A stretch of 64,000 nucleotides of DNA from Aggregicoccus sp. 17bor-14 (GCF_009659535.1 NZ_VJZZ01000004.1:434001-498000), one strand, 5' to 3'. Shown: positions 964-28,111, counted from the stretch's first letter. Notes: a model not told the origin generated them from the sequence alone. Numbers and translations: made by a program.

Positions 964-1938
964 CTACTCGCCGAGCACGGCGCGGATGGTCTCGCGCATC
1001 GTGTGGCGCGGCTGCCACGCCACGTCCTCGCGCCAGCGCGCGCCGTCCACCGCGCAGAGGAACTGGATGTGGTCCAGCTCCGGCGGCGGGAAGCTCGCGA
1101 GCCGGTACTTGAAGAGCGCGCCGAGCAGCGGGCGCGCGAGGGGATGGGGCACGGGGATGGGCGTGCTGCCCAGCTCGCGGAAGATGGCGGAGAGCGGCAC
1201 CTCGCCGGGGCCCACCACGTTGTAGACGCCGCGCAGGCCGGGCCGCAGCGCCTCCACCATCGCGCGCGCCACGTCCTCCACGTGGATGAGCTGCACCATG
1301 GGATCGAAACCCGCGAGCACCCACGGGTGGCGCTTGCGCAGGTAGTTGCTGGGCGCGTTCTTGATGCCCGGCCCCACGATGTGCACCGGGCGCAGGATGA
1401 CCGTCTCGATGTCCGGGTGCTTCCAGAAGAAGCCGTGCGCGAGCATGTCCACCTCGATGAGGTCGCGCACGCCCGAGAAGCGGCTCGCGCCCATGAGGGG
1501 CGCATCCTCGGTGAGGAAGTTCGAGTTGTCGGGGCTGGGGCCGTAGACGTTCGCGCTGCTGAGCACCACCAGCTTCTTCACGCCGTACTTCGCGCAGTAC
1601 TCGAGCAGGCGCGTGGTGCCCACCACGTTGAAGGAGTGGTGCTCCTCCTCGCTCATGCGCGGGTCGTGCATGATGCCCATGTGGATGACGGCGCGCACGT
1701 CGTGCTTGCGGAACACGTCCTCCGCCTTCTTCTTGCGCAGGTCCAGCTGGTGCATCTCCACGTCCTTGGGCGCGCCCACGAAGGGGCGGCGGTCCAGGCC
1801 GAGGATGCGCTCGCGCGTGTGCAGCAGCTTCGCCAGCGTGCGGCCGAGGTTGCCGCTGATGCCGGTGACCACCACGCCGGGGCGCTCGCGCCCAGCGCCG
1901 CTGGAGCCGCCGCTGCCGCCCTTCTCGCGCGGGCTCAC
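964..1938 (-). CDS. NAD-dependent epimerase/dehydratase family protein
   Basis: 324 residues from a GTG whose first bases overlap the stop of the upstream acyltransferase gene (GTGA overlap), which fixes the start and implies translational coupling. After a Gly/Ser-rich leader comes VVVTGISGNLGRTLAKLL, the GxxGxxG NAD(P)-binding loop of an extended short-chain dehydrogenase. Further on are VVLSSANVYGPSP (active-site Ser region), ILRPVHIVGPG and LIHVEDVARAMVEAL, all typical of sugar-nucleotide epimerases and related reductases. The usual YxxxK pair is not obvious, so the chemistry is uncertain: sugar-nucleotide modification or another NAD(P)-dependent reaction are both possible. It is the last gene of a five-gene minus-strand cluster of envelope or glycoconjugate enzymes. 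Confidence 0.85.
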   Translation of the reverse strand: MSPREKGGSGGSSGAGRERPGVVVTGISGNLGRTLAKLLHTRERILGLDRRPFVGAPKDVEMHQLDLRKKKAEDVFRKHDVRAVIHMGIMHDPRMSEEEHHSFNVVGTTRLLEYCAKYGVKKLVVLSSANVYGPSPDNSNFLTEDAPLMGASRFSGVRDLIEVDMLAHGFFWKHPDIETVILRPVHIVGPGIKNAPSNYLRKRHPWVLAGFDPMVQLIHVEDVARAMVEALRPGLRGVYNVVGPGEVPLSAIFRELGSTPIPVPHPLARPLLGALFKYRLASFPPPELDHIQFLCAVDGARWREDVAWQPRHTMRETIRAVLGE

Positions 1939-2822
1939 CGGAACACCCCCTGGCGCTCGCGCAGCCCCTGGTTGAGCAGGGTCTGGATGGCGCCCTTCAC
2001 GGTGCGCACCTTCTTGTCCAGCTCGCTGTCCTCGTCGTCCGCGCGGCCGCGGAAGTGCAGCGGCTCGCCGAAGTAGATGCGGTACTTGGTGGGCAGCGGG
2101 AAGGGCACGCCGGTGGGGGTGATGGGGAAGGCGGGCATGCCGAGCAGCCGCGCGAGCGGCTTGAGGTCCAGCAGCGCGGGCGCCTGCTCCTCGGCGCCCA
2201 CCACGGCCACCGGCACGATGGGGGTGTCCGTCTCCAGCGCGAGCCGCATGAAGCCCAGGCCGAAGTCCTGCAGCTGGTAGCGCTGGGGCCAGAGCTTGGC
2301 GATGCCGCGCGTGCCCTCGGGGAAGACGAGGATGGCCTCGCCCGCGTTGAGCAGGCGGCGGCAGTTCTCCGGGGTGCCCACGATCTGCCCCATGCGCGCC
2401 ATGAAGGTGGAGACGTAGGGCAGGGCCGGCACCCACTTGTCCACGAGGCTGCGGATGAAGCGCGGGGGCCGGGCCTCGAGCACCATGGCCACGCCGATCA
2501 TCGCGCCGTCCATGGGCAGCTGGCCCGAGTGGTTGCTCACCAGCAGCACCCGGCCCGGCGGCACGCGCTCGATGCCGTGCACCTGCACGCGGTGGTAGTG
2601 GCGGTAGAGCCAGATGAAGGGGGCGAGCGCCGCGAGGCTGAACTCGCGGTTGAAGCCGAAGGGGTCCACCCCGTACTCGTTCTCCGTGCGCGCGAGCGCG
2701 CTGAAGCGGTCGGCGCTGCTGCCGGCGCCGCCCGCCGCACCGCCAGCCGCGCCCTCTGCCGCCATGCGCTCCGTCCACTGCCGCAGGCCGCGCTTCACCC
2801 TGTCGCCGAGCTGCTCGAGCAT
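1935..2822 (-). CDS. Lysophospholipid acyltransferase family protein (PlsC-like)
   Basis: 295 residues from the ATG at 2822 (MLEQLGDRVKRGL). A GTG at 2885 would give 316 residues but would overlap the upstream gene. The core VLLVSNHSGQLPMDGAM carries the histidine of the acyltransferase active site in the variant spacing H-x6-D seen in diacylglycerol-acyltransferase-like members, and ILVFPEGTRGIAKLW carries the conserved EGTR acceptor-binding motif. It probably acylates a lysolipid or glycolipid at the inner face of the membrane. A basic amphipathic N-terminus and an Ala/Gly-rich low-complexity stretch precede the domain. It sits between the deacetylase and the epimerase, with a four-base overlap to the latter. 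Confidence 0.85.
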   Translation of the reverse strand: MLEQLGDRVKRGLRQWTERMAAEGAAGGAAGGAGSSADRFSALARTENEYGVDPFGFNREFSLAALAPFIWLYRHYHRVQVHGIERVPPGRVLLVSNHSGQLPMDGAMIGVAMVLEARPPRFIRSLVDKWVPALPYVSTFMARMGQIVGTPENCRRLLNAGEAILVFPEGTRGIAKLWPQRYQLQDFGLGFMRLALETDTPIVPVAVVGAEEQAPALLDLKPLARLLGMPAFPITPTGVPFPLPTKYRIYFGEPLHFRGRADDEDSELDKKVRTVKGAIQTLLNQGLRERQGVFR

Positions 2823-2868
2823 GGGTGGGGTGTTTACACCCGGCCCGGCCCCGAAGGGGAGGCGCAAC

Positions 2869-3851
2869 TCACGGAGCGTCGGCACCCGACGGGCGCCCCT
2901 GCGGGGCGAGGCGCTCGGCCGCCTGGCACAGCGGCAGCAGCTCGCGCTCCGCGCGCACCCGGGCGAGCAGCGCCGCGAGGCGCTCGAGCTTGAGCGAGGC
3001 CCTCACGCGCAGGTCGCGCTGGCGGCGCACCAGCGCCTCCGGGATGCCGTCGCTCGCGTCCAGCGCGTCCACCGCGTGCAGCTCCAGGTTGAAGAGTGCG
3101 TCCCGGCGCAGGGCGCGGTAGAGCGAGGCGGTGACGGCCCCGGGCAGCGTGGCCACGAAGGTGCCGATGACGGGAAAGCGCAGGCCCGGGGTGACGCTCA
3201 CCGGCAGCTCCAGCACGCGGCCCTCGCCGCGCCGGTAGGGGGCGGCGGGGTCGGGCCAGTAGGGCGTGCGCGGCGCGAGCAGCACGCGCGGGCTGTCCAG
3301 CACCGAGCGCGAGGGGCGCCGCGCGAGCGCGAGCGCGCCCATCACGGTGGCCTTCGCGGCGTAGTAGGGCGCGGCCGGGAAGGTGGAGGAGGCGTAGCGG
3401 TAGCCGCGCGCCTCACAGGCCCGGTACAGCGCGGCGCTCAGCGTGTAGCCCGGCGCGCGAAAGCCCACGGGCGCACGTCCCGTGGCCGCCTCCAGCGCCG
3501 CGTCCGCGCGCGCGAGGTCCTCGAGGATGTCCCCGGGCGCGCGGCGCGAGAGCGCGTAGTCGTGGGAGAAGGAGTGGCTCGCCACCTCGTGGCCGCTCGC
3601 ATGGGCGGCCGCGAGCGCAGCGCTCGCGCCCGGCAGCGCGAGGTCCTCGCCGATGGCGAAGAGCGTGGCGGGGGCGCCCGCGCGCTCGAAGCACTCGAGC
3701 AGCCGCGGCAGCGCCACGCCGTAGACGAGGCGGCGCGCGCGCTCGTCGAGCAGCCGCTCGTCCAGCCCGTGGATGCGGCAGTAGTGGGGCAGCGAGTCGA
3801 GGTCGACCGACGCCGACGCGAGCGAGACCGACGCGAGCGGGCCCGTGCGCA

Positions 3852-3852
<1 letters not shown>
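2869..3852 (-). CDS. Polysaccharide deacetylase family protein
   Basis: 327 residues; the ATG shares one base with the stop codon of the preceding glycosyltransferase (TGATG). The NodB-homology core is visible: SVDLDSL near residue 15 supplies the metal-binding aspartate, ATLFAIGEDL follows, and GHEVASHSFSHDYALS provides the HSxxH zinc-binding histidines. VGFRAPGYTLS is motif 3. Family members remove N- or O-acetyl groups from polysaccharides or glycolipid sugars. There is no signal peptide, so the substrate may be a lipid-linked sugar facing the cytoplasm, as in ArnD-like or PIG-L-like steps. The pairing with a dolichol-phosphate-type glycosyltransferase supports that reading, but the substrate is inferred. 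Confidence 0.9.
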
Positions 3853-4565
<713 letters not shown>

Positions 4566-4650
4566 GGCTCTGGGTCCGCGCTGCTAACACGGCCGCGCGC
4601 GGGGCGTCGACGGTTTGTGGCGCCCCCTGCCTCGGAGCCGACAGCGCGCG

Positions 4651-5970
4651 CTAGCCCTGCACGGCGCGCGCGGCCGCGCGGCCCGCGAGGATGGCGTCCT
4701 CCATGGAGGAGTACTCCCACTGCCCGTAGCGGCCGGCGGTCTGGATGCCCGCGTGCTCGAGGAAGCGGAGGATCTCCCGCTTCGCCTCGCCGTAGGCCGC
4801 GTCGTAGAGCACGTAGGCGTGGGGGATCTCCCGCGCGCGCGCGAAGCGCACGTCCTCGGCCGCGTGGATCATCTGCGAGCGCAGCAGGTCCTCGACCGCG
4901 TGGCGCTCGCACGCCTCCTTCGAGAGCTCGCCGTGGTGGCTGTACTCCACGTAGAAGGTGCTGGTGTCCGGGGGCGCGAGCGCCGCGTACACCGCCGAGG
5001 GCGAGCCGATGCGGTAGGTCTTGAACTCGGGCTCCGGCAGGTAGATCCAGTGCCAGGGCTGGCGGTTCGCGCCGCGCACGCCCACGCTCACGTAGGTGAC
5101 GGTGGTGGCCCTCAGGCGCGAGGCGGCCGCGCGCACCTCGTCCGGCACCCCCGAGGCGCCCTCGCCCAGCAGCCGCACCAGCCCGGGCAGGGACACGGTG
5201 GACACCAGGTGGCGGTAGCCGAGCGTGCGCCCGTCCGAGAGGCTCACCCGGCGCGCGCGCCAGTCGATGGCGGTGGGCTCGGTGCGCACCGAGACCTCGC
5301 CGCCCTCGAGCCCGCGCAGCATCGCGCGCGCGAGCGACTCGATGCCGCCCTCGCGCGGGTAGATGAACGAGGCGTTGTAGCCCAGCGCATCGCTGCCCAC
5401 GCCGAGCGCCCCGTCCACGACCTCCTTGAGCGTGGGGCGCGGCACGAAGCGCCCCACCCACTCGGCCGAGAGCTCGGAGGGGTCCACCGTCCAGAGCTTG
5501 CGGTTGTAGGGCAGCATGAAGTTCTTCGCGAAGCCCTCGCCCATGTAGCGCAGGATGAACTCGGTGAAGTTCGCGGGCTCGCGCTCGCGCAGCGCCCTGC
5601 CCTTCTCGCCGTACACGGCCTCCACGTAGCCCACGAGGTTCTCGGCCACGACCTCGGGCGGCAGGCCGTGCGTGTTCACCTGGTAGGGAAAGCGCGTGAA
5701 GACGCCGCGGCTGAACACCGCCGCGCGGCGCTGGAGGGTGACCAGCTGGCCCGGCAGCCAGCGCTCGGTGACGAGCGCGCGGATCTCCGGGTCGCGCAGG
5801 TGCAGCCAGTGCCCGGTGGGGTCGAAGAGGCAGCCCTCGATCTCCTCCGTCTTGATCAGCCCGCCCACCCGCTCGCTGCGCTCCACGAGCTGCCAGGGCC
5901 GCGCGCGCCCGAGGAAGTGCGCGGTCGAGAGCCCTGCGAGTCCCCCACCCAGGATGACGGTCGGTTCCAT
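4651..5970 (-). CDS. FAD-dependent amine-oxidase/UDP-galactopyranose-mutase-like oxidoreductase
   Basis: 439 residues. The N-terminus VILGGGLAGLSTAHFLGR is a GxGxxG dinucleotide-binding fold, followed by LVERSERVGGLIKTEEIEG, the second FAD contact region. Residues near 50-60 (DPTGHWLHLRDP) and the C-terminal block TAGRYGQWEYSSMEDAILAG, which closes the FAD site, match the NAD(P)-binding amine-oxidase family that includes protoporphyrinogen oxidase and UDP-galactopyranose mutase. PYNRKLWTVDPSELSAEWV and PREGGIESLA are family-typical. Given the neighbouring sugar genes, a role on a nucleotide sugar or glycolipid is plausible but inferred. It is the first gene of the cluster and divergent from the TPR gene at 6220. 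Confidence 0.85.
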   Translation of the reverse strand: MEPTVILGGGLAGLSTAHFLGRARPWQLVERSERVGGLIKTEEIEGCLFDPTGHWLHLRDPEIRALVTERWLPGQLVTLQRRAAVFSRGVFTRFPYQVNTHGLPPEVVAENLVGYVEAVYGEKGRALREREPANFTEFILRYMGEGFAKNFMLPYNRKLWTVDPSELSAEWVGRFVPRPTLKEVVDGALGVGSDALGYNASFIYPREGGIESLARAMLRGLEGGEVSVRTEPTAIDWRARRVSLSDGRTLGYRHLVSTVSLPGLVRLLGEGASGVPDEVRAAASRLRATTVTYVSVGVRGANRQPWHWIYLPEPEFKTYRIGSPSAVYAALAPPDTSTFYVEYSHHGELSKEACERHAVEDLLRSQMIHAAEDVRFARAREIPHAYVLYDAAYGEAKREILRFLEHAGIQTAGRYGQWEYSSMEDAILAGRAAARAVQG

Positions 5971-6219: not shown

Positions 6220-9200
6220 ATGAAAGTCTCGTGCCCGTCTTGCCAGACGAACTACAACATCGATGACAAGCGGATCCCGCCGGGGGGCGCGAAGCTCAAG
6301 TGCGCGCGCTGTCAGAACACCTTCCCCATCCGGCCGGCTTCCGAGAGCGCGGGCGCCGCGGTGCCGCTGCCGGGCGCGAACCCCTTCGCCGCGGACGCGG
6401 TCCCGCTGCCCGCCTCTGCAGGCGGCCCCTCGGACGCCGTCCCGCTGCCGGGCAACGCCTACGCGGCCGCCCCCGGCGCCATCCCGCTGCCGGGCGCTCC
6501 GGCGCCGGCGGGCGAGGACTGGGACGCGGAGTCCACGCGGGTGATGACGATGCCGGTCCCGCCGGCCGCCTTCGGCGAGTCCCCTGCCGCCGTGCCCCTG
6601 CCGGGCGCGGGGCGCGCGCGCTCGGCCGACTTCGGGCTGGACCTGCCCTCGCCGGGCGCGGTGCCCCTGCCCGGCGCGGGCGGGCCCGCGGCCAGCGGCG
6701 GCTACGGCGAGGCGGACGGCTACGGCTTCGCGCCCCCCGCGCAGGCGGTGCCGCTGCCGGGCGGCGCGCACCCGGGCGCGGTGCCGCTGCCGGGCGGTAA
6801 CCGCTACGCCGATGAGGCGCTGCCCCTGCCGGGCGCGAACCCCTTCGCCGCGGACGCGCTGCCCCTGCCGGGCGTCTCCGCGCCGCAGGGCACCGCGCGC
6901 GACTTCGACTTCTCGGAGGCCGCGCCGCCTCCGGTGGACGTGGACCCCTCGGCCCTGCCCTCGCAGGACATCGACTTCGCCGACGTGCCCGCCGCAGCGC
7001 CGGGCGTGGCCGCGCGCGCAGGCGCCCAGGAGATGGACTTCTCCAGCCTCCCCACGCCCGCCGACGACGCGTTCGCGCTGCCGCCGCCCCCCGCTGCGGC
7101 GCAGGAGATGGACTTCTCCAGCCTGCCCACGCCCGCGAGCGAGGCGTACGCGCCGCCGGCGGCCGCGCCGCGCGCCGCGCAGATGGACTTCTCCAGCCTG
7201 CCCACGCCCGCGGACGAGGTGCCGATGGCCTCGGACCTGGACTTCTCGGAGGCGCCCGCGCCGGATCCGACCACGGGCTTCGGGGACGTGGACTTCAGCG
7301 AGCCCCCGCCCCCGCCCGCCCGGGCCTCCGGCGCGCTCGAGTTCGACCCCACGGACGCCTCCCACGCCTCGAAGCCCGCCTCCCCCGAGGGGCTGGAGAT
7401 GCTGAGCTTCATCGACGAGGGCGGCGCCGCGCGCGCTGCCGCGGGCGGCAGTGCGCAGCGCTTCCATGTCCGGCGCCGCTCCGGCAAGGTGTTCGGCCCC
7501 TTCGACGAGGCGGCCGTCGTCAAGATGCTCGAGGACGGGCAGCTGCTGGGCAACGAGGACGTCTCGCTGGACGCGGAGAGCTGGGCGCCCATCGGCACCC
7601 AGCCGGGCTTCGCCGCGGCCATCCAGCGCCTGATGGAGGCGCCGGCCTCCGGCAGCGGCAGCGCCGCGGGCTCCGGCAGCTCGGTCTCGCTGGGCAACGT
7701 CGGAGCCGGCAGCGGCGCGGAGCCGGCCATCCCCAACCTCGAGCGGCGCGACGAGGACCCCTCGCTCGGCATGGACCGGCTGAAGCAGCTGTACGAGGGC
7801 CGCATGGCGGCGGCCGCCATGGTGGACGGCGGCGCGGGCACGGCGCGGCTGAAGCGGCGGCTGCCGGTGCTCCTGGGCGCCGGCGCGCTGGGCCTCGCGC
7901 TGCTCGCCGGAGCGAGCCTCGGCCTCACGCGCTACGGGGCCTTCGGCGTGCACCGGCTCTTCCCGGCGCGCGTCTCGGAGGGCTCGGGCGCGGCGGCGGA
8001 GCTGAACAAGGCGCGCCAGGCGCTGCTGGGTGACACCTTCGCGAGCTACAAGCAGGCGAAGGCGCTGAGCGAGCGCGTGCTCGCGGTGAAGGAGTACCCG
8101 GAGGTGCGCGCGCTGTGGTGCCAGGCGGTGTTCTACCTGCAGCGCCGCTACGCGGCCGCCACCCCGGCGGATCTCGCCCGGGCGCAGGAGGCGCTGCCGG
8201 CGGTGGAGATGCTGGGGGCGAAGGACCCCGAGGTGGTGAAGGCCTTCGCGGGCCAGGCGCTGGTGCAGCACCGCCCCGAGGACGCGCTGCCTGCGCTGCA
8301 GGACGCGTGGAGCCGCGAGGGCAACCGCAGCGACGTGGAGCTCGCGTTCCTGCTCGCCGAGGCCTACGCGCAGAAGGGCCAGGGCAAGGACGCTTCGGAG
8401 GTGCTCAAGGGCCTGCTCGCGCAGGGCAAGCCCACGGCGAAGGCGCTGCACGCGCTGGGCGACCTGCACCAGGCGGCCGCGCGCGCGGACGAGGCGGCGC
8501 GCGCCTACGACGCGGCGCTCAAGGCGGACCCGCGCCACGCCATGTCCGCGGTGGAGCTGGCGGCGGTGGAGCTGCTGGTGCGCAAGGACGTGGCCAAGGG
8601 CGAGGCGGCAGTGGAGCGCGCGCTCGAGGAGAAGGTGCGCGCGGAGCTGGGCCCCGCGGAGCTCGCGCGCGCGCTCACCCTGCGCGGCGTGGTGCGCGCG
8701 CAGCAGTTCAAGCCGAAGGAGGCGCAGGCCGAGTTCGAGGAGGCGCTGAAGAAGGACCCGCAGAGCGTCTTCACGAAGGTGAACCTGGCGCGCGTGCTGC
8801 TGAGCCAGCGCGAGTACGCCGCGGCGCTGCCGCTGTACAAGGAGGCCGCGACGCGCGAGCCGCGCAACATCGACTCGACGGACGGCTACATCCGCACGCT
8901 GGTGGCCACCGGCAACATGGGCGAGGCGCTGGACGCGGTGAAGGCCGCCAACGCGCGCTTCCCCGACAACGCCCGCATCGCGTACCTCTTCGGCCGCATC
9001 GACGATGCGCGCGGCGAGAGCGCGAGCGCCGAGACGCACTACACGCAGGCGCTGGCCTCGGACGCGGACCTGGTGGAGGCGCGGCTGTACCTCGCGCGCC
9101 ACATGCTGCGCGCGAACCAGCTGGACAAGGCGAAGGAGCAGCTGGCGCTCGCGCTCAAGGTGCAGCCGGACAGCGCGCTGGTGCACACGGGCCTGGGCGA

Positions 9201-10242
9201 GCTCGCGCTCGCCTCCGGTGAGGGCGCCGCCGCGCGCGAGGCCTTCGAGCACGCGGTCTCGCTGGACCCGAACCTGGCGGACGCGCACCTGGGCCTGTCG
9301 CGCCAGGCGCTGGCGGCCGGCGAGCTGGAGCGCGCGAAGACCGAGGCGGACCGCGCGCTGGAGCTGGACCCGCGGCTGAAGGAGGCGCGGCTGCACCGCG
9401 GCCGGGTGCTCTGGCGCCAGGGCGCGCTCGCGGACGCGGTCACCGAGCTGGAGGCGGCCAAGGCGGAGGACCCGCGCGCGGTCGCCATCCCGGTGATGCT
9501 GGGTGCGGTGAAGCTGCAGAGCGGAGACCTCGCGGGCGCCGAGAGCAACCTGCTGCTCGCGCTGCGCTCCGAGCCCTCGAACGCCGAGGCGCTGTACTAC
9601 CTCGCGCAGGTGAAGGCGAAGCGCGCCGAGTACACCCAGGCGCTCGACAGCATGCGCAGCGCGGTGGAGCGCGCGCCCAAGCGCGCGGACTACCACTACA
9701 CCTACGGCCTCATCCTGCGCGACGCGAAGAAGCTCGGCGAGGCGATGGAGGAGTGGAAGACGGCGGTGAAGCTGGACCCGGCCTCCGCGGACGCGCACGA
9801 GGCGCTGGGCCAGGGCTACCTCGAGCGCGGTGACGTGGAGGCGGCCGTGGGCGCGTTCGAGGCGAGCCTGAAGGCGGACCCGAAGCGCACGCGCGTCATC
9901 GGGTCCATCGGCGATGTGTACTTCAACGCCGCGCGCTGGAGCGACGCCGTGGCGCAGTACCAGACCGCGCTGAAGCAGGACCCCAGCCTCACCGCCCTGC
10001 TCTACAAGGTGGGGCGCGCCTACAGCGAGCAGGCCGACCACGCGAAGGCGGTGGAGTGGTACAAGAAGGCCATCGTCTCCGACGCCCAGAACCCGATGCC
10101 GTACTACTACCTGGGCTTCGCGTACAAGGAGAAGGGCAAGAAGCGCGAGGCGATTGCGGCCTTCAAGGACTACCTCTCGCGCCGCCCCGACGCCGAGGAC
10201 AAGAAGGACATCGAGGACGAGATCTACGACCTCGAGCACTGA
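6220..10242 (+). CDS. Large zinc-ribbon / GYF-like / transmembrane / TPR protein
   Basis: 1340 residues behind a good GAAGGAAG ribosome site. The N-terminus has an MJ0042-type zinc ribbon (Cys5, Cys8, Cys28, Cys31). Residues about 45-230 are disordered and hold ten PLPG/PLPA repeats. Next come DF-containing repeats, including three copies of MDFSSLPTPA. A GYF_2-like domain lies at about 414-475 (FHVRRRSGKVFGPFDEAAVV), one membrane helix at about 548-570, then a long array of tetratricopeptide repeats to the C-terminus ending DIEDEIYDLEH. The zinc ribbon plus GYF order resembles AgmX/GltJ, the gliding-motility protein that binds MglA in Myxococcus, but here the periplasmic part is TPRs. Topology should place the zinc and GYF domains in the cytoplasm and the TPRs in the periplasm. 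The exact role is unknown. Confidence 0.85.
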   Translation: MKVSCPSCQTNYNIDDKRIPPGGAKLKCARCQNTFPIRPASESAGAAVPLPGANPFAADAVPLPASAGGPSDAVPLPGNAYAAAPGAIPLPGAPAPAGEDWDAESTRVMTMPVPPAAFGESPAAVPLPGAGRARSADFGLDLPSPGAVPLPGAGGPAASGGYGEADGYGFAPPAQAVPLPGGAHPGAVPLPGGNRYADEALPLPGANPFAADALPLPGVSAPQGTARDFDFSEAAPPPVDVDPSALPSQDIDFADVPAAAPGVAARAGAQEMDFSSLPTPADDAFALPPPPAAAQEMDFSSLPTPASEAYAPPAAAPRAAQMDFSSLPTPADEVPMASDLDFSEAPAPDPTTGFGDVDFSEPPPPPARASGALEFDPTDASHASKPASPEGLEMLSFIDEGGAARAAAGGSAQRFHVRRRSGKVFGPFDEAAVVKMLEDGQLLGNEDVSLDAESWAPIGTQPGFAAAIQRLMEAPASGSGSAAGSGSSVSLGNVGAGSGAEPAIPNLERRDEDPSLGMDRLKQLYEGRMAAAAMVDGGAGTARLKRRLPVLLGAGALGLALLAGASLGLTRYGAFGVHRLFPARVSEGSGAAAELNKARQALLGDTFASYKQAKALSERVLAVKEYPEVRALWCQAVFYLQRRYAAATPADLARAQEALPAVEMLGAKDPEVVKAFAGQALVQHRPEDALPALQDAWSREGNRSDVELAFLLAEAYAQKGQGKDASEVLKGLLAQGKPTAKALHALGDLHQAAARADEAARAYDAALKADPRHAMSAVELAAVELLVRKDVAKGEAAVERALEEKVRAELGPAELARALTLRGVVRAQQFKPKEAQAEFEEALKKDPQSVFTKVNLARVLLSQREYAAALPLYKEAATREPRNIDSTDGYIRTLVATGNMGEALDAVKAANARFPDNARIAYLFGRIDDARGESASAETHYTQALASDADLVEARLYLARHMLRANQLDKAKEQLALALKVQPDSALVHTGLGELALASGEGAAAREAFEHAVSLDPNLADAHLGLSRQALAAGELERAKTEADRALELDPRLKEARLHRGRVLWRQGALADAVTELEAAKAEDPRAVAIPVMLGAVKLQSGDLAGAESNLLLALRSEPSNAEALYYLAQVKAKRAEYTQALDSMRSAVERAPKRADYHYTYGLILRDAKKLGEAMEEWKTAVKLDPASADAHEALGQGYLERGDVEAAVGAFEASLKADPKRTRVIGSIGDVYFNAARWSDAVAQYQTALKQDPSLTALLYKVGRAYSEQADHAKAVEWYKKAIVSDAQNPMPYYYLGFAYKEKGKKREAIAAFKDYLSRRPDAEDKKDIEDEIYDLEH

Positions 10243-26558: not shown

Positions 26559-27038
26559 ATGGGCACGCAACTGGTGATGTACGAAGAGGAGTTCACCAAG
26601 ATCAACGCGGTTTGCGACCGGCTGACCAAGGACGCGAACGCGAAGGTGGTGTTCCTCGTCGACAAGAACGGGCAGCTCATCTCGTCCGCCGGGCAGACGC
26701 AGAACATCGACACCACGAGCCTCGCGTCGCTGACGGCGGGCAACGTGGCGGCGATGGGCGGCCTGGCGAAGCTGATCGGGGAGAACGAGTTCCCGAACCA
26801 GTTCCACGAGGGAGCGAAGGACTCGCTCTACATGACCATCGTGGGCAGCCGCGTGGTGCTGGTGGTCATCTTCGACAACCGCACGAGCCTGGGCCTGGTG
26901 CGCCTGCGCATCAAGAAGGCCAGCGACGAGCTCGGGAAGATCTTCGAGAGCCTGGTGAAGAAGACGGACGCCCCCGGTGCCGGTTCGCCGTTCGCCGAGA
27001 TCTCCGACGACGACATCGATAACCTGTTCAGCGAGTAA
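26559..27038 (+). CDS. mglB: MglB, GTPase-activating roadblock protein
   Basis: 159 residues. MglB is the roadblock/LC7-domain GTPase-activating protein of MglA and marks the lagging cell pole in Myxococcus. The sequence runs [57 protein letters not shown] and [18 protein letters not shown], the alternating strand and helix order of the fold. The C-terminal acidic tail ends in [12 protein letters not shown]. It is followed after 11 bases by mglA, the standard mglBA order, and preceded by a 188-base gap that probably holds the promoter. Confidence 0.95.
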
Positions 27039-27049
27039 CCCGGGAAGCC

Positions 27050-27640
27050 ATGTCCTTCATCAACTACTCGTCCCGCGAGATCAACTGCAAGATCGTCTAT
27101 TACGGGCCCGGTCTGTGCGGGAAGACGACGAACCTGCAGTACATCTACAACAAGACCAACCCCGAGACGAAGGGCAAGCTCATCTCGCTCTCCACGGAGA
27201 CGGATCGCACGCTGTTCTTCGACTTCCTCCCGCTCTCGCTCGGTGAGATCCGCGGCTTCAAGACGCGCTTCCACCTGTACACGGTGCCCGGGCAGGTGTT
27301 CTACGACGCCAGCCGCAAGCTCATTCTCAAGGGAGTGGACGGGGTCGTCTTCGTCGCCGACAGCCAGGTCGAGCGCATGGAGGCGAACATGGAGAGCATC
27401 GAGAACCTGCGCATCAACCTGGCGGAGCAGGGCTACGACCTGAACAAGGTCCCCTACGTGCTGCAGTACAACAAGCGCGACCTGCCCAACGCGGTGACGA
27501 TGGACGAGATGCGCAAGGTGCTCAACCCGAAGAACATCCCGGAGTACCAGGCGGTGGCGCCCACGGGCGTGGGCGTGTTCGACACGCTCAAGGCGGTGGC
27601 GAAGCTGGTGCTGACGGAGCTCAAGAAGGGCGGCGGGTAG
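27050..27640 (+). CDS. mglA: MglA, Ras-like motility and polarity GTPase
   Basis: 196 residues. MglA-GTP marks the leading pole and drives type IV pili-based and gliding motility. The P-loop GPGLCGKTT spans 19-27, switch II contains TVPGQ at 78-82 with the MglA-specific threonine 78 in place of the usual Asp, and YNKRDLPNA (from 140) is the guanine-specificity motif. Length and sequence fit the Myxococcus protein almost throughout. Translation is probably coupled to mglB. A cyclic-nucleotide-binding gene begins 27 bases after the stop codon. Confidence 0.97.
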
Positions 27641-27667: not shown

Positions 27668-28111
27668 GTGGAGAAGCTCTCGGTCATCTCCGCTTCGCCG
27701 CTGTTCGAGATGCTCAGCAACCAGGAGCTCTCGGCGGTGGCGGACCTCTCGGTGCCGCGGCACTACGCGGCGGGCGAGGCGGTGTTCGAGGAGGGGGAGC
27801 TGGGCGACAGCCTCTTCGTGATCGTCTCCGGTGAGCTGGAGGTGTTCCGGCGCGAGCCCTCGGGCCGCGCGCGGGTGCTCGCCACGCTGCAGGCGCCCGA
27901 GTTCTTCGGGGAGATGAGCCTCATCGACAAGGAGTACCGCTCGGCGAGCGTGCGCGCGCACACGGATGCGCAGCTGCTGCAGCTGTCCGCCGAGCAGCTC
28001 ACCCAGTTCCGGCAGACGTACCGGGACGGCTTCACCTTCATCGTGATCAACATCGCGCGCGTGCTCAGTGCCCGCCTGCGCGATGCGAACACCCGGCTGC
28101 AGCGGCCCTGA
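27668..28111 (+). CDS. Single-domain cyclic-nucleotide-binding protein
   Basis: 147 residues from a GTG. One CRP-type binding domain fills the protein: FEMLSNQELSAVADLSVPRHY, GEAVFEEGELGDSLFVIVSG (beta roll) and FFGEMSLIDKEYRSASVRA, the phosphate-binding cassette. The cassette has GEMSLIDKEYRSAS where classical cAMP sites have GELALxxxxPRxA; the arginine is kept. There is no DNA-binding helix-turn-helix, so it is more likely to regulate a partner protein than a promoter. It sits 27 bases after mglA on the same strand, so it may be co-transcribed, and converges with the IMPase gene 18 bases later. Confidence 0.88.
   Translation: MEKLSVISASPLFEMLSNQELSAVADLSVPRHYAAGEAVFEEGELGDSLFVIVSGELEVFRREPSGRARVLATLQAPEFFGEMSLIDKEYRSASVRAHTDAQLLQLSAEQLTQFRQTYRDGFTFIVINIARVLSARLRDANTRLQRP

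Follow-up and report, generated by a model that had tools for sequence, protein, structure and literature searches.

The gene at positions 6220..10242 (+) of the window, the whole stretch of 64,000 nucleotides from Aggregicoccus sp. 17bor-14 that was analysed, probably encodes a single-pass scaffold of the inner membrane. In the style of GltJ or ZitP, this scaffold would join a cytoplasmic docking platform to a periplasmic arm of TPRs, with partners of its own and with a docking that could be switched by phosphorylation. The open reading frame is a genuine coding gene of 1340 codons, since its ATG is preceded by GGAAG, the GC content at the three codon positions is 0.76/0.52/0.98 and orthologs are found in most genomes of the order. 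According to domain scans, structural models and the orthologs, the protein of 1340 aa is built from a zinc ribbon, a motif-rich linker, a GYF domain, a juxtamembrane helix, one transmembrane (TM) helix and about 21 TPRs.

The N-terminal zinc ribbon, already recognized in an earlier note on this DNA, is of the MJ0042 type with two CxxC pairs in residues 1-38 (6220..6333, +). PF13717 (Zn_ribbon_4) matches residues 1-36 in hmmscan with E=5.2e-15, over the cut-off, and the best match in the PDB is GltJ (7zok, E=1.6e-7). The proline-rich stretch described before corresponds to a linker of ~330 residues (41-372) with 23% Ala and 20% Pro. It is followed by the GYF-fold domain in residues 414-474 (7459..7641, +), by a juxtamembrane segment that is conserved in the orthologs, MDRLKQLYEGRMAAAAMVD (7771..7827, +), and by one hydrophobic segment in residues 550-568 (7867..7923, +), which agrees with the single membrane helix proposed earlier. 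The rest of the protein is a predicted periplasmic TPR superhelix (7987..10239, +).

The GYF region scored 17.2 bits with PF14237 (GYF_2), below the cut-off of 25.8 bits, and what the models support for this region is the fold, not membership of this Pfam family. A PDB sequence search with the GYF profile gave no match at E<1, and hhalign of the GYF of the gene family against that of GltJ gave a probability of 5%, with just the last 15 columns aligned; the assignment therefore rests on structure. The AlphaFold model of residues 384-489, calculated with 11 orthologs, has the order strand-strand-helix-strand-strand-helix. With this model, the 13 best Foldseek matches were all GYF domains or chains of the TIC complex, and the top match in VIA-align was the GYF domain of GltJ (7z3c, Z 5.7, 70 residues, rmsd 5.0), with other GYF chains tying within 1 in Z. 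The GYF-like domain suspected from the sequence is thus borne out by model and fold searches.

Lysine and arginine are in excess on the N-terminal side of the TM helix in 35 of 40 orthologs. By the positive-inside rule, this makes an N-in/C-out topology, and hence periplasmic TPRs, likely; the K/R balance favours the orientation assumed in the earlier note, not the reversed one. The long TPR array proposed there was recovered in the C-terminal half by the profile PF07719 (E=1e-46, hmmscan) and by a model of residues 373-1340, which has ~43 helices after the TM helix, equivalent to ~21 TPRs, from residue ~590 to the C terminus. The mean pLDDT of the TPR region is mostly 75-95; the TM stretch is poorly modelled, with low pLDDT. 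Tandem TPRs above the cut-off together with an alpha-solenoid fold place this region in the TPR superfamily, and Foldseek with the TPR model returned generic TPR solenoids alone (OGT, Ctr9, designed TPRs).

The protein has in common with GltJ/AgmX an N-terminal MJ0042 zinc ribbon, a disordered linker, a GYF-fold domain and one TM helix. As far as the models go, the likeness to the cytoplasmic half of GltJ, as claimed before, is real in domain order and fold (7zok, 7z3c). This likeness does not support the further inference that MglA is bound; the linear motifs of GltJ, for one, are missing. The gene is not GltJ itself; its genomic surroundings and three features of its sequence speak against this identity. 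An alignment of 20 GltJ orthologs brought out two linear motifs that hardly vary and lie outside the domains: DE[IL]GAVFDxxL, which is part of the linker, and WKPSAASALASL (WKPSAAS), which follows the GYF domain. HMMs of both motifs matched 20/20 GltJ, which are the sequences from which they were built, and no member of the TPR-gene family at E<0.01. The TonB-like periplasmic C-terminal domain of GltJ is absent as well: where GltJ/AgmX has a Pro/Ala-rich region and this domain, the C-terminal ~750 aa here are the ~21 TPRs. The gene also does not lie in the G1 gliding cluster but adjoins an amine oxidase/GT2 operon and serS/tadA. The same genome has its true GltJ at a separate locus (C4:11344-11967 and beyond), with the order zinc ribbon, linker, GYF, TM, C-terminal domain and with a C terminus unlike that of the TPR gene. 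At a distance of 17 kb from this GltJ there is a 646-aa open reading frame with an FHA match, which would fit GltG of the G1 cluster (PMC3169522).

Nor are the single domains particularly close to GltJ. The zinc ribbon is 35% identical to that of its own GltJ, 42% to that of M. xanthus and 35-40% to those of four other paralogs (38-40% for three of these). Since it is no closer to its own GltJ than to the paralogs, the match to 7zok reflects which zinc ribbons have solved structures. For the GYF domain, alignment gave a shuffle z of 10 with a paralog in the same genome (L009) and of 1.2, not above shuffles, with GltJ. A second GltJ-like protein of the same genome was seen at C26:11592 (-), with a GYF 47% identical to that of GltJ, a TM helix and a similar C-terminal domain; an N-terminal zinc ribbon was not found in it.

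The ~470-aa paralog L009 has the identical domain order ZnR-GYF-TM-TPR, and the TPR gene therefore appears to belong to a wider ZnR-GYF-TM-TPR set, of which GltJ would be another branch. Its GYF domain is clearly related and its zinc ribbon 38% identical, but the linker is much shorter, the TPRs are few, and neither PLPG repeats nor the TRV motif (see below) were seen. Another TPR protein of the same lineage is SgmX of M. xanthus; its TPRs are cytoplasmic, whereas those described here are predicted to be periplasmic. SgmX is an MglA effector (PMC12288465). Proteins of the ZitP type (ZnR-TM-DUF3426, PDB 2nb9) also have a cytoplasmic zinc ribbon before one TM helix, but no GYF and no TPRs, and DUF3426 is in the periplasm. 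Such ZnR-TM proteins are localisation hubs, for example ZitP for PopZ (PMC5182065). ZitP needs Trp35 of its zinc ribbon to bind PopZ, and the zinc ribbon of AgmX, which has Ile at this position, does not localise in Caulobacter (PMC5182065). In 25 of the 26 members of the TPR-gene family examined this position is Phe, and thus aromatic as in ZitP.

The source genome (6.9 Mb) belongs to family f1, the Myxococcaceae, with the relatives Myxococcus, Corallococcus, Archangium, Hyalangium, Citreicoccus and Pyxidicoccus. A search with the profile of the GYF region found the gene in 117 of 145 Myxococcales genomes, with one match per genome except in G076, which has two; none of the listed f7 genomes gave a match, nor did f4, f6 or the reduced 2-Mb genomes of f1. 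Both the TPR gene and GltJ are present in 113 genomes, neither in 15, only the TPR gene in 4 and only GltJ in 13. We give this co-occurrence no weight, because 12 of the 15 genomes with neither are from one family, f7, and because, counted per family, 7 agree and 2 differ (f6 has only GltJ, f8 only the TPR gene). The full Myxococcus-like locus was also seen on a contig under the title Comamonas sp. KCTC 72670; the title of the record is probably wrong.

The earlier note suggested a second MglA-linked transmembrane scaffold, in which the zinc ribbon or the linker would bind MglA-GTP (or MglB) and couple polarity to the periplasmic TPRs in parallel to GltJ. This reading, made by analogy, is not favoured, and we regard it as quite unlikely. 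It can draw on the domain order that the cytoplasmic part shares with GltJ, an MglA effector (PMC12288465), on the GltJ domains as nearest solved structures and on the TRV motif common to the TPR gene and 9 of 19 GltJ linkers. On the other hand, DEIGAVFD and WKPSAAS are lacking in the TPR-gene family, position 35 of the zinc ribbon is Phe and not Ile, and within its own genome neither zinc ribbon nor GYF is closest to GltJ. Attia et al. in 2024 reportedly found that the binding site of MglA-GTP in GltJ is a cytosolic motif, and that binding alters the zinc finger next to it so that MglB is recruited; if MglA indeed binds this motif, the missing linker motifs outweigh the presence of a zinc ribbon. 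mglBA does lie within the window, as had been pointed out (mglB, 26559-27038; mglA, 27050-27640), but ~16 kb downstream of the TPR gene and separated from it by serS, tadA, dnaX and recR-like genes. In several f1 genomes with both on one contig the distance is 11-19 kb. The linkage is kept in f1 but broken in G033, where the two are 3.7 Mb apart, and in G031, where they are on different contigs and the TPR gene is >30 kb from either contig end; in other families it is lost while the TPR gene persists. The proximity is thus weak evidence for a link to MglA, because it is broken elsewhere while the pairing with the amine oxidase and GT2 genes persists. Co-occurrence with MglA does not discriminate, since MglA is present in 40/40 relatives, including 8 in which the TPR gene was not found. 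Directly downstream of mglA, a small cyclic-nucleotide-binding (CRP-like) protein is encoded (27668-28111, +).

The divergent operon (964-5970, -) encodes, by Pfam, a FAD amine oxidase, a GT2, a polysaccharide deacetylase, an acyltransferase and an epimerase; GT2 and deacetylase presumably are an ArnC/ArnD-like pairing. These names, and the fact that at least the amine oxidase/GT2 part of the divergent pairing is kept in f1, f2, f5 and f9, that is, deeper than the linkage to mglBA, would fit a scaffold for envelope biogenesis that works with the operon in lipid-linked sugar or glycan synthesis, not in motility. We consider this unlikely: divergent adjacency may reflect a shared promoter region alone, the operon is not kept in G033 save for the acyltransferase gene, and some contigs end too early to decide on adjacency. 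A very unlikely alternative is a platform for the assembly or localisation of type IV pili or other polar machinery, similar to ZitP/DUF3426 proteins and with TPRs like those of the pilotins PilW and Tgl. ZitP, a related ZnR-TM protein, does control pilus biogenesis (PMC5182065), and PilW and Tgl are among the NCBIfam TPR matches; these matches, however, are all generic and below the curated cut-offs, and a Pfam scan of flanking genes showed no type IV pilus gene.

The preferred reading, a scaffold with its own partners, draws in part on the linker. In it, an AVPLPG-like motif occurs nine times (type I, 6358..6876, +) and a degenerate motif of the form xMDFSxLPxP ~7 times (type II, 6901..7335, +), followed just before the GYF domain by the linear motifs LEFDPT and DGLEMLSFID (here EGLEMLSFID; 7336..7419, +), which are nearly invariant in the family. 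In the linkers of 33 orthologs, PLPG was observed 282 times with 3.7 expected from shuffles, and type-II motifs (D-x-D/E-F-S like) 80 times with 7.7 expected; like all linker motif counts given here, these come from related and thus non-independent sequences. A third motif, DAESTRVM with Thr106 (6523..6546, +), is a candidate site for a Ser/Thr kinase and a candidate FHA ligand. The corresponding pattern, [DE]x(0-3)[STPVA]TR[VLIM], which was defined after inspection of the data, is present in 25 of the 33 linkers with 34 copies versus 0.37 expected, and was not found in the other 8. Aligned on the Thr, the copies have an acidic residue at -2 (32/34), Val/Met at +3 (24) and Pro at +6 (20). As background, measured on the window and the fetched loci, DAESTRVM is the sole match among the 41 open reading frames of the window, and there are 4 matches in 29,250 aa of the TPR sequence of the family. 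The 9 of 19 GltJ linkers with the motif compare with 0.11 expected; an example from the GltJ orthologs L078-L105, about half of which have it, is DRMSTRVLDADVVKKLA. L079-L085 have lost the motif; among them is the sequence whose zinc ribbon matches M. xanthus GltJ.

The enrichment indicates selection, not phosphorylation. The most likely role of the acidic-[SVA]TRV-V/M motif is that of a site which a Ser/Thr kinase phosphorylates and a protein with an FHA domain then reads. In M. tuberculosis, the Thr motif that depends on PknA has acidic residues at -1 and -3 to -6 and Leu/Val at +3 (PMC7164672); the linker motif is alike, with acidic residues at -2 to -5 and Val/Met at +3. Peptides of this kind are ligands of FHA domains. 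There are 29 FHA matches in the same genome, and among the gliding proteins GltG carries an FHA domain on the cytosolic side (PMC3169522). It may be speculated further that the protein is a kinase-gated trans-envelope scaffold, in which Ser/Thr kinases phosphorylate the Thr of [DE]-[SVA]-T-R-V-[VM] and thereby create a docking site for an FHA protein, while in GltJ this motif joins the gliding machine to the same phospho-FHA layer; we regard this version as doubtful.

In the scaffold that we prefer, the zinc ribbon would be the protein-binding hub of the cytoplasmic platform and the GYF an adaptor domain, and the long disordered linker would offer repeated short linear motifs for docking. Docking would become switchable if the TRV threonine is phosphorylated by a Ser/Thr kinase and read by an FHA protein. 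The ~21-repeat TPR superhelix would hold envelope partners in the periplasm, and the whole would link an assembly in the envelope to a factor for localisation or signalling in the cytosol, as do GltJ or ZitP. The papers searched gave no partner, localisation or phenotype, and we know of none for any ortholog. The gene is present in single copy in most of the searched genomes of the order, yet no function was found. Its architecture suggests that GltJ and this protein use one reusable ZnR-linker-GYF-TM platform, joined to different periplasmic arms. Through the shared TRV motif it can be tested directly whether the myxobacterial Ser/Thr kinases and FHA proteins are linked to machines of the envelope, among them that of gliding. 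A further ZnR-TM-TPR paralog of the same genome (L012; C8:89215, -) has about a dozen STQVFG-type repeats in its linker, a candidate phospho-Thr array.
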